DNA from: Bacteroidota bacterium
GTDB taxonomy: Bacteria > Bacteroidota > Bacteroidia > NORP154
Direction of reading: 5' to 3'
Assembly: GCA_002401055.1 (NCBI GenBank)
Contig: NVRZ01000023.1
Span: 1 to 5,436 of the forward strand
DNA length: 5,436 nt
In this document: in pieces, positions 1 through 5,436 of the stretch
Layout of the letters: each line of letters starts with the position of its first letter
Position numbering within the stretch: position 1 is the first letter of the stretch
Translations under genes and position numbers: made by a program
The notes under the pieces: generated by a model
Database searches by the model: none
What the model was told of the DNA's origin: nothing
The model's input: only the letters and a program-made list of their open reading frames with translations

Positions 1-167
1 TTCATCTTATAACTAATATCAAGCAATCGAAACGTATCGATAAGCAATCCTTTTTTCACTTCCATATCTAAGTCTGTATCAGTGTTGAAGGAAGGTGCTT
101 GATTTACTTCGAGGAGCCAGGGATTCATTTTCTTATCAAGGATTATATCAAATCCTAATATCTCAAA
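1..167 (-). other. TTLL-type ATP-grasp C-terminal segment within the minus-strand gene
   Basis: Residues 316-370 match the end of the tubulin-tyrosine-ligase-like catalytic core: FEILGFDIILD, the metal/ATP ligand motif PWLLEVN with E335 and N337, PSFNTDTDLD, and the amphipathic VKKGLLIDTFRLLDI helix. TTLL enzymes ligate amino acids (Tyr, Glu, Gly) to protein side chains or tails. The N-terminal and central ATP-grasp subdomains that should precede this are absent. TTLL proteins are best known from eukaryotes, with scattered bacterial members. By hand count, GC is about 33% in 1-180 and about 41% in 181-420, which is suggestive but a small sample. Confidence 0.75.
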
Positions 168-1112
168 TTCATTAACCATTTGCCCACCACCAAGTCCGGC
201 CAGAAGAACTTTAGATCCTGGTGGTTTATATGATGAATAAGCAGCTATTCGATGAACATATAAAAATGCGGATCTCCCGGTTGGCAGGTAGGAATAGCTT
301 TGCGATATATTATTCACATAAAGTAACCTGGTTTCCTTTTTTATATAATCAATCACTAGAAGTTGGCCTGCTAAGCCATCAGATTTATGAATGACGTTGA
401 AGTGTTTGCTGGTGGGAAACGCGCTCAGAACACTTACAATATTTAAGGACGTTAGTAGAGCGGTAATTGACAGAAATGCCAACGCGCTCTTCAAGTTTCT
501 TGTTTTTAGAAACACAACAATGGGTGCGGTTACAGCTATCATAGCAACTGTTACAGCGCAAATCCTCAAGCCTAAAGATGGAATAAGAAAGAATCCCAAT
601 GAGATTGTAGTGATCACCCCGCCTAGGGTGGCAATCGCAAAGGTTGTTCCAACAAACTTGCCCGTATTCTGTACACTTGAGGAAAGAGCTGTTATTATCA
701 GCGGAGAAGTTATTCCTAAACAAAACATAATCGGGAATATAAAAATCAGGCTTGAAATCACTGAAGCAGTGCGAATATCTGAGAACAGCATAAACTCCAT
801 AACCCAGGGCCCAATAAATGGCATGCTTGCGATTAAGATTGCTGCAACTCCCATGGATTTGTACAATATTTCAATTTCATCGTATTTTTTGCTCAGAATA
901 CCGCCTAAATAATATCCTCCGGCTAGGCCAAATAGGGTCACGGCTAGCACGGAACACCAAGTGTACAAGGATGAACCAAAGTAGGGCTCAATAAACTTGG
1001 CACCCAGCAATTCTGCTCCCATCACTACAGCCCCTTCAATTAAGGCAGTGAGTAAAAGCATTTTTTCACCTATAACTTCTGAATATGTTGTCTTCTGATT
1101 AGTTTTAGCCAT
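1..1112 (-). CDS. Membrane spermidine-synthase-like protein joined in frame to a TTLL (tubulin-tyrosine-ligase-like) C-terminal segment; 3' end outside window
   Basis: The frame is open for 370 codons from ATG at 1112 to the left edge, with no stop in the window. An in-frame TAG lies six codons upstream, so 1112 is the first possible ATG; the next is M18. Residues 1-235 hold about seven hydrophobic segments (roughly 18-40, 50-73, 87-109, 118-140, 152-175, 183-202, 209-231). The segment EPYFGSSLYTW followed by LFGLAGGYYLGG is typical of fused MFS/spermidine-synthase proteins. Residues 237-313 match the synthase beta region (GLAGQLLVIDY, LYVNNISQSYSYLPTGR) and the nucleotide-binding loop KVLLAGLGGG. 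Instead of the expected acidic motif (VVEIDP-like), residues 316-370 read as a TTLL C-terminus: FEILGFDIILD, PWLLEVNQAPSFNTD, then LDMEVKKGLL. E335 and N337 correspond to the family's Mg-ATP ligands. Neither catalytic domain is complete here, so activity cannot be inferred. The gene is divergent from the adhesin gene. Confidence 0.85.
   Translation of the reverse strand, partial: MAKTNQKTTYSEVIGEKMLLLTALIEGAVVMGAELLGAKFIEPYFGSSLYTWCSVLAVTLFGLAGGYYLGGILSKKYDEIEILYKSMGVAAILIASMPFIGPWVMEFMLFSDIRTASVISSLIFIFPIMFCLGITSPLIITALSSSVQNTGKFVGTTFAIATLGGVITTISLGFFLIPSLGLRICAVTVAMIAVTAPIVVFLKTRNLKSALAFLSITALLTSLNIVSVLSAFPTSKHFNVIHKSDGLAGQLLVIDYIKKETRLLYVNNISQSYSYLPTGRSAFLYVHRIAAYSSYKPPGSKVLLAGLGGGQMVNEFEILGFDIILDKKMNPWLLEVNQAPSFNTDTDLDMEVKKGLLIDTFRLLDISYKM
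144..173 (-). other. Fusion or chimera junction at a motif common to both families
   Basis: Residues 314-323 (NEFEILGFDI). The spermidine-synthase family typically has a V-N-E-L-x-x-L-G-F-D-like stretch after its glycine loop. The TTLL family has C-F-E-I-L-G-F-D-I. The join falls in this shared segment, with the synthase NE on one side and the TTLL FEI-GFDIILD on the other, so the exact breakpoint cannot be placed more finely. The reading frame is kept. Confidence 0.65.
147..404 (-). other. Truncated spermidine-synthase-like domain within the minus-strand gene
   Basis: Residues about 237-322. The beta-strand region before the Rossmann fold is present (GQLLVIDY, RLLYVNNISQSY), then SAFLYVHRIAAY and the SAM/decarboxy-SAM-binding glycine loop GLGGGQMVNE. 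In this family a strand ending in an acidic residue and then the catalytic Asp region should follow within about 60-100 residues. Here they are replaced by TTLL sequence, so only the first quarter or so of the Rossmann domain remains. Assignment to the family rests on motif order read by eye. Confidence 0.7.
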
Positions 1113-1417: not shown

Positions 1418-1540
1418 ATGACGCTAACAGAAATTTTAATAAATCGCGTGAATAATATTTCTTTAAGAATTCCATTACAGTTTAAAGCAATGCTTCTACT
1501 GTTTTGTTTGACGTTCGGAATGTCAAACAACTTATATGCT
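1418..1540 (+). other. Signal peptide of the giant surface protein
   Basis: Residues 1-41. A long n-region carries R10, R17 and K23, followed by a hydrophobic core (MLLLFCLTFGM, 25-35) and a probable signal peptidase I site after NNLYA, just before C42. These are the only basic residues in the whole visible protein. The Cys after LYA resembles a lipobox, but Tyr at -2 argues against a lipoprotein. Confidence 0.75.
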
Positions 1541-4500
1541 TGTGACCAAACTTCAATAACAATAACCAGCGCCGTAGATAATGGTGATGGTACTTACACG
1601 TATACAGTAACCATTTGTCTGGGGATTTCGCCAAATTGGGGTGGCACCAGCGATTTAACTATCACTACTGATGCAAACATTATCAGCAGTTCGACCTCTA
1701 GTGTTTCAACTACCTATACGTATTGTGATACGCCCCTAGGGTTTAATGGTCAGGGTTGCTTAACCGGTACCGTGGTTATGGGAGTAGGCGGGGTTGGCGG
1801 AAATTTAGTTACAACAACGGCTACAGGAAATGTTAGTGTAATGAATGGTTCCCTAATAATAAGTAATTCCGGCGACCCCTTGGCTCCGTCTGATACTCAA
1901 GGTCCCGAGGCTGGAGATTGTGCCGAATGTGGTAACGGTTCACAAGTATGTTTTGATGTAACTTTTACAACTGATGCACCAATTAGTATAGTAAACTTAC
2001 TTGGCGCAGAAGATGTGAATGGCAATTGCTCGTCACCTCCTTGCTGTCCAAATGAATATGATAGCACAGTTCCACCTTTGACGTCTGGGGGATGTAGCAC
2101 AGTTCCAACAGCATCCTTTACTTCAACTTCACCCTTATGTGAGGGCAGCTCCTTTGATTTTACCAATACTGGTTCCTCAGGGTCAACGATGGGTGTTCCA
2201 GATTTTTCATATAGCTGGACTTTTTCATCTGGCAGTCCTTCGACCTCGACAGATGAAAATCCCAGTGGTATTACTTGGTCTAGCCCTGGAACCTATAGTG
2301 TAACCTTAACCGTGTGTGAAGCAGCCGATAACACATGTTGTGCTGATGTCACGCAATCAATAACTGTAAATGACAATCCGGTTATCTCAATTACAGGAGT
2401 AGATGAAACTTGTGCAGATCTTTGCGATGGTTCAGCAACTTCATCTGTAAGTGGCGGTACATCTGCATATACATACTCTTGGTCAAATGGTGGAACAGGA
2501 GCGGATGCTACTGGCCTTTGTGATGGCACATACACTGTTACTGTCACTGACGCCAATGGATGTATTGGCACTGCCTCAGTCGTTATTGCTCCAGGTGTTG
2601 GTCCCACTGCAGGATTCACCTATACAGGATCCAGCTGTTTGAGTACCAATAGTTTTACTTTCACAAATACAGGAACACCTATTTCTATGAATGGTCCCAC
2701 AATTGTCTGGAACTTTGGAGATCTAGGATCTTCGACTGCTGAAAACCCTACCTATTCTTACACAACCTGCGGTACGTTTACAGTAACTCAGACTATAACG
2801 GAAAATGGGTGTAGCGCCTCCACTTCTCAAACGGTAACTGTAGCCTGTGAACCAACGCTTACTGTTACCCCAACAGATGAAACTTGCGCTGGGGCTTGCG
2901 ATGGTGCTCTGGATGTTACGGTTACTGGAGGAACTTCAGCATATACCTACGCCTGGTCAAATGGTCCTACAACAGAAGATCAATCCGCATTGTGTGCGGG
3001 TGATTATACGGTTACTGTAACTGATGCAAATGGCTGTACTGCAGTGATTACCGGTACGGTAGGGGTTGGAGGTACCTCGCCGGTGGCTAGTTTTACTTAT
3101 AATGGCAATCAATGTTTATCAGGGAATAGTTATGATTTTACAAATACTGGTACCTCTCAGGTAATGGGAGTACCGGCATTTTCTTGGGATTTTGGTGATC
3201 TCAGTGGAACCTCAACGGTGGAAAACCCAAGCTATACCTACACATCTTCCGGTACATATACGGTAACTTTAACTTTAACTGATGGAAGTGGTTGTACAGA
3301 TGTTGCTACAGTTACGCTAGAGGTATATCCTGATCCGGCTGCAGCAATTGTAGGTGTTGATGAGACTTGTCCTGGAACTTGCGATGGATCTGCTGATCTT
3401 ACTCCTTCTGGTGGTACTTCCCCGTATACATTTTCTTGGGCAAGTGGTGAAACTTCTGAGGATTTAACTAATTTATGTGCAGGTACTTATGACGTAACCG
3501 TAACGGATGCCAACGGCTGTCAGGCGATTGCAACTATTGTTATTGGGGTGGGCGCTGGCCCCACCGCAGGATTCACTGCCAGCCCGCTTTCGGCATGCTT
3601 AACAGGCAATAGCTTCACATTCACCAATACTGGCACCACGGCTATGAATGGTGCTACCTTTACCTGGGATTTTGGAGATTTATCTGGCACGTCTACTTCT
3701 GAAAATCCATCCTATTCCTATTCCTCAACAGGAACATATACTGTTACACAAACCGTCACGGTGAGCGGTTGTTCCGCGGTCTCGTCGCTAACAGTTACCG
3801 TGAATCCTGAACCAACAGGATCTATAGTTGGAACAAATTTATTATGTAATGGGGTTTGTATTGGAGAAGCTGATCTTACACCTTCTGGAGGAACTTCACC
3901 TTACACATACGCGTGGTCGAATGGTTCGACTTCGCAAGACCTTACAAGCCTTTGCGCTGGTACATATACGGTGACAATTACCGATGATAATGGTTGTATT
4001 GGTACGGCTAGTATTATTATAACTGAGCCTCCGCTTCTCACTTTGGGGACTGCAGGGACAGATATCTTGTGTAATGGTTTGTGTAGTGGAAGTGCAACAT
4101 CGGCTGTATCTGGGGGAACTGCATCTTATACTTATTCATGGAATACGTCTCCGGTGCAAACTACATCTGGTGCAACTGGACTTTGTGCACAAACCTATAC
4201 GCTCACGCTCACTGATGGAAACGGCTGTGTGTTAACTTCTGATGTGACAATTGCAGAGCCAACGGCTTTGGCAGCTCCAACTTCAAGTGTTAATGAAAGT
4301 TGTCCTGGTGCATGCGATGGAACTGTCACTGTCTCTCCAACAGGCGGAACCGGAGCATATACTTATGGTTGGGATGACCCTCTTTTCCAGAATACCTCAA
4401 CTGCTACAGGCTTGTGTAGTGGTACATTTAACGTTACAGTTACAGATGCCAATGGATGTCAAATTCTTGCAAGTGCTGTTGTCGGATCTGATCCAGGCCC

Positions 4501-5436
4501 GGTCGCTGCTTTTACCACTAGCGCTGATGAGTGTTTAACAGGTAATGGCTTCACTTTTACAAATACCGGAACTCCAGGCTCGATGAATGGCCCAACCTTT
4601 TCTTGGGATTTCGGAGACTTGAGTGGAACCTCAACAGCTGAAAATCCAACCTATTCTTATACTGCATGTGGAACTTTTACGGTTACACAAATGGTGTCTT
4701 TTAATGGATGTGATTCTATAATCACTCAAAGCGTTACAATCTTTTGCGAACCCACTGTCACCATGTCCGGCACGGACTTGCTTTGTAATAGTGTGTGCAC
4801 AGGAACAGCTACAGCTACGGCGGGATCTGGTACTCCTTCTTATACTTACATTTGGAGTGATGGGCAAACAACCTCAACAGCAACAGGACTCTGTGCAGGA
4901 ATAGCTTATAATGTAACTGTATCTGATGCGAATGGATGTCAGGTAATTGATAGCCAAACACTTACTGAACCACTGGCACTCACAGCCACTATCTCAGTCA
5001 CTAACGATCCACTATGTAATGGCGGCACGGGCGATGCTACTGTTTCAGCAGGCGGTGGCACAGGCACACTTACTTACTCATGGTCACCAACGGGCGGCAC
5101 AACAGCCACAGGTACTGGTCTTTTAGCAGGAACCTTGTATACAGTAACGGTCACTGATGCGAATGGATGTACCGCAACAGCTACAGTAACATTGTCAGAA
5201 CCAACAGTACTCGCAGCAAGTATCACCGGCACAACTGATCCACTATGTAATGGCGGCACAGGCGATGCAACTGTAACAGCGAGTGGAGGCACAACAACTT
5301 ACACCTACGCATGGTCACCAACGGGAGGAACGGGAGCTACAGGCACAGGTCTTTTGGCAGGCACCTTGTACACGGTAACAGTAACTGACGCCAACGGATG
5401 TACCACCACAGCAACAGTAACCCTAAGTGAACCAAC
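1418..5436 (+). CDS. Giant secreted PKD/SprB-repeat surface protein, probable T9SS substrate (adhesin-like); 3' end outside window
   Basis: The frame is open for 1339 codons from ATG 1418 to the right edge. The upstream in-frame TAA is at 1370-1372 and 1418 is the first ATG after it. A start at M25 would leave the signal peptide without basic residues, so 1418 is preferred. Layout: signal peptide (1-41), Cys-rich region of unknown family (42-229), then five PKD domains and nine SprB-type repeats. SprB repeats are named after the Flavobacterium gliding adhesin, and proteins of this kind are usually exported by the Sec and type IX systems and displayed on the cell surface. The sorting domain that would confirm this is not in the window. 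The mature part has no Lys, Arg or His that I can find, against about 100 Asp/Glu, and is rich in Thr, Ser, Gly and Cys. Function is inferred from architecture only; a structural or enzyme-anchoring role is also possible. Confidence 0.9.
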   Translation, partial: MTLTEILINRVNNISLRIPLQFKAMLLLFCLTFGMSNNLYACDQTSITITSAVDNGDGTYTYTVTICLGISPNWGGTSDLTITTDANIISSSTSSVSTTYTYCDTPLGFNGQGCLTGTVVMGVGGVGGNLVTTTATGNVSVMNGSLIISNSGDPLAPSDTQGPEAGDCAECGNGSQVCFDVTFTTDAPISIVNLLGAEDVNGNCSSPPCCPNEYDSTVPPLTSGGCSTVPTASFTSTSPLCEGSSFDFTNTGSSGSTMGVPDFSYSWTFSSGSPSTSTDENPSGITWSSPGTYSVTLTVCEAADNTCCADVTQSITVNDNPVISITGVDETCADLCDGSATSSVSGGTSAYTYSWSNGGTGADATGLCDGTYTVTVTDANGCIGTASVVIAPGVGPTAGFTYTGSSCLSTNSFTFTNTGTPISMNGPTIVWNFGDLGSSTAENPTYSYTTCGTFTVTQTITENGCSASTSQTVTVACEPTLTVTPTDETCAGACDGALDVTVTGGTSAYTYAWSNGPTTEDQSALCAGDYTVTVTDANGCTAVITGTVGVGGTSPVASFTYNGNQCLSGNSYDFTNTGTSQVMGVPAFSWDFGDLSGTSTVENPSYTYTSSGTYTVTLTLTDGSGCTDVATVTLEVYPDPAAAIVGVDETCPGTCDGSADLTPSGGTSPYTFSWASGETSEDLTNLCAGTYDVTVTDANGCQAIATIVIGVGAGPTAGFTASPLSACLTGNSFTFTNTGTTAMNGATFTWDFGDLSGTSTSENPSYSYSSTGTYTVTQTVTVSGCSAVSSLTVTVNPEPTGSIVGTNLLCNGVCIGEADLTPSGGTSPYTYAWSNGSTSQDLTSLCAGTYTVTITDDNGCIGTASIIITEPPLLTLGTAGTDILCNGLCSGSATSAVSGGTASYTYSWNTSPVQTTSGATGLCAQTYTLTLTDGNGCVLTSDVTIAEPTALAAPTSSVNESCPGACDGTVTVSPTGGTGAYTYGWDDPLFQNTSTATGLCSGTFNVTVTDANGCQILASAVVGSDPGPVAAFTTSADECLTGNGFTFTNTGTPGSMNGPTFSWDFGDLSGTSTAENPTYSYTACGTFTVTQMVSFNGCDSIITQSVTIFCEPTVTMSGTDLLCNSVCTGTATATAGSGTPSYTYIWSDGQTTSTATGLCAGIAYNVTVSDANGCQVIDSQTLTEPLALTATISVTNDPLCNGGTGDATVSAGGGTGTLTYSWSPTGGTTATGTGLLAGTLYTVTVTDANGCTATATVTLSEPTVLAASITGTTDPLCNGGTGDATVTASGGTTTYTYAWSPTGGTGATGTGLLAGTLYTVTVTDANGCTTTATVTLSEP
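1541..2104 (+). other. Cys-rich N-terminal region of unknown family
   Basis: Residues 42-229, about 188 residues, with 11 Cys. It has Thr/Ser/Val-rich alternation (for example GDGTYTYTVTICLG) suggesting beta strands, and ends with a Cys cluster (NCSSPPCCPNEYD) before PKD1. It does not show the SprB or PKD motifs. It may be an N-terminal cap or ligand-binding module; I do not recognise it. Confidence 0.55.
2105..2374 (+). repeat. PKD1, degenerate PKD domain
   Basis: Begins PTASFTSTSPLCEGSSFDFTN and ends in the strand GTYSVTLTVCEA...SITVND. The usual WDFGD core is replaced by WTFSSGSP. The strand pattern and the SPGTYSVTLTV ending keep it recognisable as an immunoglobulin-like PKD fold. It carries a Cys-Cys pair (NTCCADV) not found in the other PKD copies. 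Confidence 0.7.
2375..2593 (+). repeat. SprB repeat 1 (four-Cys type)
   Basis: Motif order DETCADLCDGSA, GGTSAYTYSWSNG, GLCDGTYTVTVTDANGC, which fits the SprB repeat family. Cys occur at four positions: a CxxxC pair at the start, LC in the middle and NGC at the end. Confidence 0.85.
2594..2848 (+). repeat. PKD2 (extra-Cys type)
   Basis: GPTAGFTYTG start, core WNFGDLGSSTAENPTYSY, then CGTFTVTQTIT. The core Asp of WDFGD is Asn here. It has an added Cys before GTF and another at the domain end (TVAC), shared only with PKD5. Confidence 0.85.
2849..3061 (+). repeat. SprB repeat 2 (four-Cys type)
   Basis: EPTLTVTPTDETCAGACDGA, GGTSAYTYAWSNG, ALCAGDYTVTVTDANGC. All four Cys positions are kept. The repeat starts with EPT, as do S4 and S7. 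Confidence 0.85.
3062..3331 (+). repeat. PKD3
   Basis: SPVASFTYNG start, core FSWDFGDLSGTSTVENPSY, ending SSGTYTVTLTLTDGSGC. The classical WDFGD motif is intact. The extra Cys pair of PKD2 and PKD5 is absent: Ser replaces Cys before GTY. Confidence 0.9.
3332..3544 (+). repeat. SprB repeat 3 (four-Cys type)
   Basis: VDETCPGTCDGSADLTPSGG, TSPYTFSWASGE, NLCAGTYDVTVTDANGC. Full four-Cys set, directly followed by the GVGAGPTAGF linker into PKD4. Confidence 0.88.
3545..3808 (+). repeat. PKD4
   Basis: GPTAGFTASPLSACLTGNSF start, core FTWDFGDLSGTSTSENPSY, ending STGTYTVTQTVTVSGC. It lacks the extra Cys pair, as in PKD3. Confidence 0.9.
3809..4030 (+). repeat. SprB repeat 4 (four-Cys type)
   Basis: LLCNGVCIGEADLTPSGG, TSPYTYAWSNGS, SLCAGTYTVTITDDNGC. 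The usual CDG is CIG here. It is followed directly by another SprB repeat with no PKD between. Confidence 0.88.
4031..4261 (+). repeat. SprB repeat 5 (four-Cys type)
   Basis: DILCNGLCSGSATSAVSGG, TASYTYSWNTS, GLCAQTYTLTLTDGNGC. More divergent than its neighbours: the AGTY turn is AQTY and TDANG is TDGNG. Confidence 0.85.
4262..4483 (+). repeat. SprB repeat 6 (four-Cys type)
   Basis: NESCPGACDGTVTVSPTGG, TGAYTYGWDDP, GLCSGTFNVTVTDANGC. The WSNG turn is replaced by WDDPLFQ. It ends the first run of three consecutive SprB repeats. Confidence 0.85.
4484..4747 (+). repeat. PKD5 (extra-Cys type)
   Basis: GPVAAFTTSADECLTGNGF start, core FSWDFGDLSGTSTAENPTY, then CGTFTVTQMVSFNGC and TIFC at the end. 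The two added Cys sit at the same places as in PKD2, and EPTVT follows just as EPTLT follows PKD2. Confidence 0.9.
4748..4972 (+). repeat. SprB repeat 7 (four-Cys type)
   Basis: DLLCNSVCTGTATATAGSG, PSYTYIWSDGQTT, GLCAGIAYNVTVSDANGC. The last repeat with the full four-Cys set. The insertion in AGIAY anticipates the AGTLY form of S8 and S9. Confidence 0.85.
4973..5203 (+). repeat. SprB repeat 8 (two-Cys type, 231-base unit)
   Basis: NDPLCNGGTGDATV, SWSPTGGTTATGTGLLAGTLY, TVTVTDANGC. Two of the four Cys are lost: the second of the start pair, and LC, which becomes LL. It forms a tandem pair with S9. Confidence 0.9.
5204..5436 (+). repeat. SprB repeat 9 (two-Cys type), last unit in the window
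   Basis: Same 231-base length and two-Cys pattern as S8. By hand alignment 63 of 77 residues agree, with many synonymous third-base differences in the identical stretches (GGC/GGA, ACG/ACA, GAT/GAC). It ends in LSEP at 5434; the Thr codon that would open another unit is cut by the window edge. Confidence 0.9.

Follow-up and report, generated by a model that had tools for sequence, protein, structure and literature searches.

The fused MFS/spermidine synthases (NCBIfam: NF037959, MFS_SpdSyn) combine a membrane half with a synthase-like domain that carries a glycine loop. Residues 1-323 of the protein considered here resemble them in both membrane half and loop, but the synthase-like domain lacks its second half, in place of which stands a tubulin-tyrosine-ligase-like (TTLL) piece; a matching half is found on a different contig. 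With the TTLL6/TTLL7 tubulin polyglutamylases (Pfam: PF03133) the protein shares the C-terminal block FEILGFD...PWLLEVN.APSF, whereas it keeps only positions 232-281 of the 292 in the TTL profile. The third system to which the locus may be compared is the chimeric metagenome contig, which, in those parts of two accounts that deal with its formation, is described as arising where shared k-mers link graphs and where similar regions are merged (PMC7299287, PMC8862208). As in the cases described there, two sources would be joined at a common word, which is presumed for the present locus; unlike in the usual chimeric contig, the shared word is here a coding motif, so that no stop interrupts the frame and the join resembles a gene fusion.

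The window, by which we mean the whole stretch of DNA analysed (5,436 bp), is an entire contig (C16) of a 2.49-Mb genome bin (G000; 269 contigs, 60.5% complete). The join reported in it is real as a sequence as such; the gene fusion that it suggests is, judging from the sequence, almost certainly not a real feature. With a probability that we put at about 0.95, the fused frame would be an assembly artefact, produced by the assembler stepping between genes inside a short shared stretch.

An open frame with two incomplete domains

The frame lies on the minus strand (window 3..1112, 370 aa), starts at 1112 and is stop-free up to the left contig edge, where it runs off at 3; the extent of 1..404 given in the initial annotation was too short, as the gene reaches 1112. 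Its matches to both NF037959 and Pfam TTL bear out the description of a single open frame that leads, without a linker, from an MFS/spermidine-synthase N-terminus with a GLGGG loop to a TTLL motif. NF037959 covers residues 29-222 (E 4.5e-23, 81.7 bits, cut-off 40 bits), so that the MFS-like membrane half is present; the intact orthologue from another genome of the same genus (G001, see below) scores 123.4 bits against the same model. The full spermidine-synthase-like domain is lacking: homology to the intact orthologue ends at residue 323, and Pfam Spermine_synth, which matches residues 301-405 of that orthologue, was not reported for the window protein. On the basis of blastn, NF037959 and amino acid identity to G001, residues 1-323 (window 144..1112, minus strand) are the genuine part and come from a gene resembling those of the fused MFS/spermidine synthases, the orthologue of G001:C33 4186-5781.

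The final 55 residues (316-370; window 1..143, minus strand) form a TTLL6/7-type C-terminal piece that ends at the contig edge and is foreign to the gene, as judged by its Pfam TTL match, its matches to PDB chains, protein searches and an alignment of TTLL proteins. The Pfam TTL match (PF03133) falls on residues 313-362 with E 1.2e-13 and 51.4 bits (cut-off 20.1 bits); it includes the C-terminal block of the family, while the entire TTL/ATP-grasp domain is not found. Both catalytic domains are thus cut in mid-fold, as had been noted before, the ligase being reduced to profile positions 232-281 of 292 and the synthase fold ending at residue 323, and with both domains incomplete neither ligase nor synthase activity is expected. 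The GC content left of the join is indeed lower, as initially described, but the difference is smaller than the 33% against 41% then given: it amounts to 35.7% in 1-143, against 40.5% in 144-1112 and 37.2% in 144-404.

The intact gene and its missing half

At an E-value limit of 0.001, a protein search gave 486 proteins, the best 120 of which include the window's own. The remaining 119 among the matches listed, with 366 others lying outside, make up the panel of relatives used below. The TTLL motif occurs in none of these 119. When the contigs of the genomes were scanned with an alignment of intact relatives, 9 of 114 stretches were confirmed, each matching at least 493 of 531 residues; the same kind of scan with the chimera as the query matched 52 stretches, none of which was confirmed.

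G001, which belongs to the same genus, encodes a complete orthologue of 531 aa at C33 4186-5781, and a SprB-like gene diverges from it, in the same arrangement as in the window. By blastn, window 145-1082 aligns to G001:C33 5159-4222 at 70.1% and window 1443-4147 to G001:C33 3802-1140 at 65.6%; at the protein level, the N-terminal half in the window is 70.1% identical to the G001 orthologue over 324 residues. The divergent neighbour in the window (1418..5434, plus strand), which lies outside the join, is a SprB/PKD-repeat gene in which Pfam finds seven SprB and five PKD_4 stretches. The contig ends on the right while still inside the repeats of this gene, which is thereby truncated, and its G001 orthologue likewise leaves its contig.

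A C-terminal part of the gene, such as the window lacks, is found in the same bin, at the edge of contig C191. Its frame is open at that edge, with QYFNMTDKVNV as its first residues, and it matches residues 339-529 of a relative (P0002) at 87%. By blastn, C191 87-6321 runs along G001:C33 11476-5204 at 71.1%, and on the G001 map the gap between window 144 and the end of C191 is 42 nt, equal to 14 codons. From these two alignments to G001:C33, C16 and C191 tile the locus with 42 nt between them and are next to each other in gene order. The C191 part is 86.5% identical to G001 in amino acid sequence, compared with 70.1% for the N-terminal half in the window; a similar contrast between halves is seen in three further relatives (P0003, P0004 and P0005), a lesser one in P0002 and none in P0006. 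From bin membership and gene order only, we infer that C16 and C191 carry one gene of one organism.

Source of the tail, switch point and readings of the join

The proteins that resemble the tail point mostly to eukaryotes. Against the PDB, the 57 residues of the tail (314-370) match five distinct chain sequences of TTLL7 and TTLL6 (E 1.9e-16 to 1.3e-15) and, more weakly, TTL and TTLL11. With query residues 314-370, nine proteins were found besides the window's own, the top one covering 91% of the tail at 77% identity; the named ones both come from eukaryotes, namely a TTLL6-like protein from Lutzomyia longipalpis and, from Stylonychia lemnae, a member of the tubulin-tyrosine ligase family. 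When the 57 residues alone served as the query, 19 short proteins were returned at only 60-77% identity, so that the exact TTLL source is not among them. Three labels occur in this set: 'tubulin polyglutamylase TTLL6/13'; MMETSP, which we take to stand for a marine eukaryote transcriptome project; and 'D-alanine-D-alanine ligase-like ATP-grasp enzyme', an automatic label of bacterial kind on a metagenome fragment. As the named matches are mostly eukaryotic, the tail is likely to derive from a eukaryote.

The place at which the bacterial sequence gives way to this tail can be located closely. When window 293-1 is set against G001 without gaps, a single change point fits best at window 145, on either side of which identity is 77.9% and then 26.4%, and in 24-base bins the number of matches falls from 22 (173-150) to 7 (149-126). 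The switch lies in a word at 144..167 (minus strand) that encodes FEILGFDI, eight residues compatible with both proteins. All eight letters are found in seven of nine aligned TTLL relatives and, complete, in one of the 119 bacterial relatives among the matches listed (P0003), while 20 of those 119 have a glutamate and an LGF-like triplet whose spacing from the glycine loop is the same. The idea that both families carry an E-x-x-x-LGFD-like motif at the join thus holds for the close bacterial relatives, where the motif is common, but not for the family at large. The residue before the word is C (7/9) or A (2/9) in the TTLL relatives and E in all nine aligned bacterial relatives; the one after it is I, L or F in the former and D in all nine of the latter. 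Since the flanking residues differ between the families, the shared word can be at most about 24 nt long, a length that would suit a small assembler k-mer. At the DNA level, the word is deduced from the protein: a scan of viral contigs for the TTLL source confirmed 0 of 37 stretches, and the protein search with the tail gave no exact source either.

Taken together, the intact gene of a relative, the missing half at the edge of a second contig, a foreign tail that fills the last 143 nt of this contig and a switch placed within a shared word argue for a false join. A false join at a k-mer shared within a metagenome assembly was one of two origins that the initial annotation had considered, and it is strongly supported: the close relative carries the gene intact, join-free and beside the same neighbour (G001:C33), and a C-terminal half lies at the edge of C191, a second contig of that assembly, which stops 42 nt short of the join. 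The other origin, homology-driven recombination that would leave a membrane-tethered ligase remnant, gained no support, as the TTLL motif is absent from the 119 relatives among the matches listed and the search for the same join elsewhere, then proposed as a check, gave no exact match to the 39-nt join pattern in viral contigs.

The same two results weigh against a real insertion, in which eukaryotic TTLL DNA would split the bacterial gene at a short shared stretch, with the C-terminal half further on. The frame is open through the join, and TTLL DNA inserted between the halves would yield the identical two contig edges; such an event, however, requires that DNA which is likely eukaryotic be inserted in frame, exactly where two coding sequences match and next to an assembly gap, and the bin contains no other PF03133 match, the tail being its sole TTL-family place. 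We regard an insertion as very improbable; if it were real, it would yield a membrane protein that is cut short and ends in the TTLL C-terminal motif as an inactive ligase tail.

Harder still to credit is a true fusion with a bacterial TTL-like gene, selected as a membrane-anchored ligase. TTL-family matches do occur in the class, with PF03133 found in 8 of the 295 genomes drawn from it (the bin and seven others), but in none of six further genomes from the genus and family; moreover, the tail's named matches are TTLL6, TTLL7 and TTL proteins of eukaryotes, save for the one metagenome fragment with its bacterial-kind label, and both enzyme domains are incomplete. A real fusion within the lineage was rejected on these grounds. 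A chimeric molecule from library preparation, joined at the shared word and not made by the assembler, would give an identical contig but is just as hard to credit, as a junction that falls in a shared stretch, at a contig edge and next to a gap, is more simply accounted for by an assembler branch.

Under the preferred reading of a false assembly join, the gene on C16 would continue into C191 over about 42 unassembled nucleotides, as it does in G001. In their place, the graph path would have led, by way of the shared word, to a short stretch of TTLL sequence present in the same sample, the assembler thereby passing from a bacterial membrane-enzyme gene to a TTLL gene, likely that of a microbial eukaryote, and the contig would then have ended 143 nt past the switch. 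The real bacterial product would be an ordinary MFS/spermidine-synthase-like protein, and there would be no membrane-tethered ligase.

The main value of the case lies in caution, as a short motif that a bacterial gene has in common with a TTLL gene left the frame open over a probable false join. The chimera can be mistaken for a gene fusion; in the protein collection that was searched it is entered as a TTL-domain protein (P0001, a cluster of three member sequences from one contig), and the contamination estimate of the bin (0.19%) does not show it. Three checks would expose similar fusions: whether a relative has the gene intact, whether the missing half stands at the edge of a different contig and whether a change point falls within a shared word.

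Further observations on the membrane family

At C191 3853-5726 (L011), and likewise at L033 5800-7706, genes for an ECF sigma factor (TIGR02985, above cut-off) and a FecR-like protein (a weak match, below cut-off) separate two paralogous MFS/spermidine-synthase-like genes, and this order is also found in G001. On contig C241 of the bin (L013, 3-1377), two MFS/spermidine-synthase-like fragments adjoin each other, one of about half size and the other cut by the contig edge; half-size matches adjoining full-length ones are also seen in four other genomes (G002:C23, G003:C179, G005:C33 and G006:C82).

The glycine loop of the family (window 197-183, minus strand) has G or A, and never D or E, at its fourth place in all 119 relatives among the matches listed. 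Spermidine synthases are described as requiring D or E there, in GxG(D/E)G (PMC10349129). With G or A where an acidic residue is needed, 'spermidine synthase' may be a misnomer for this membrane family.
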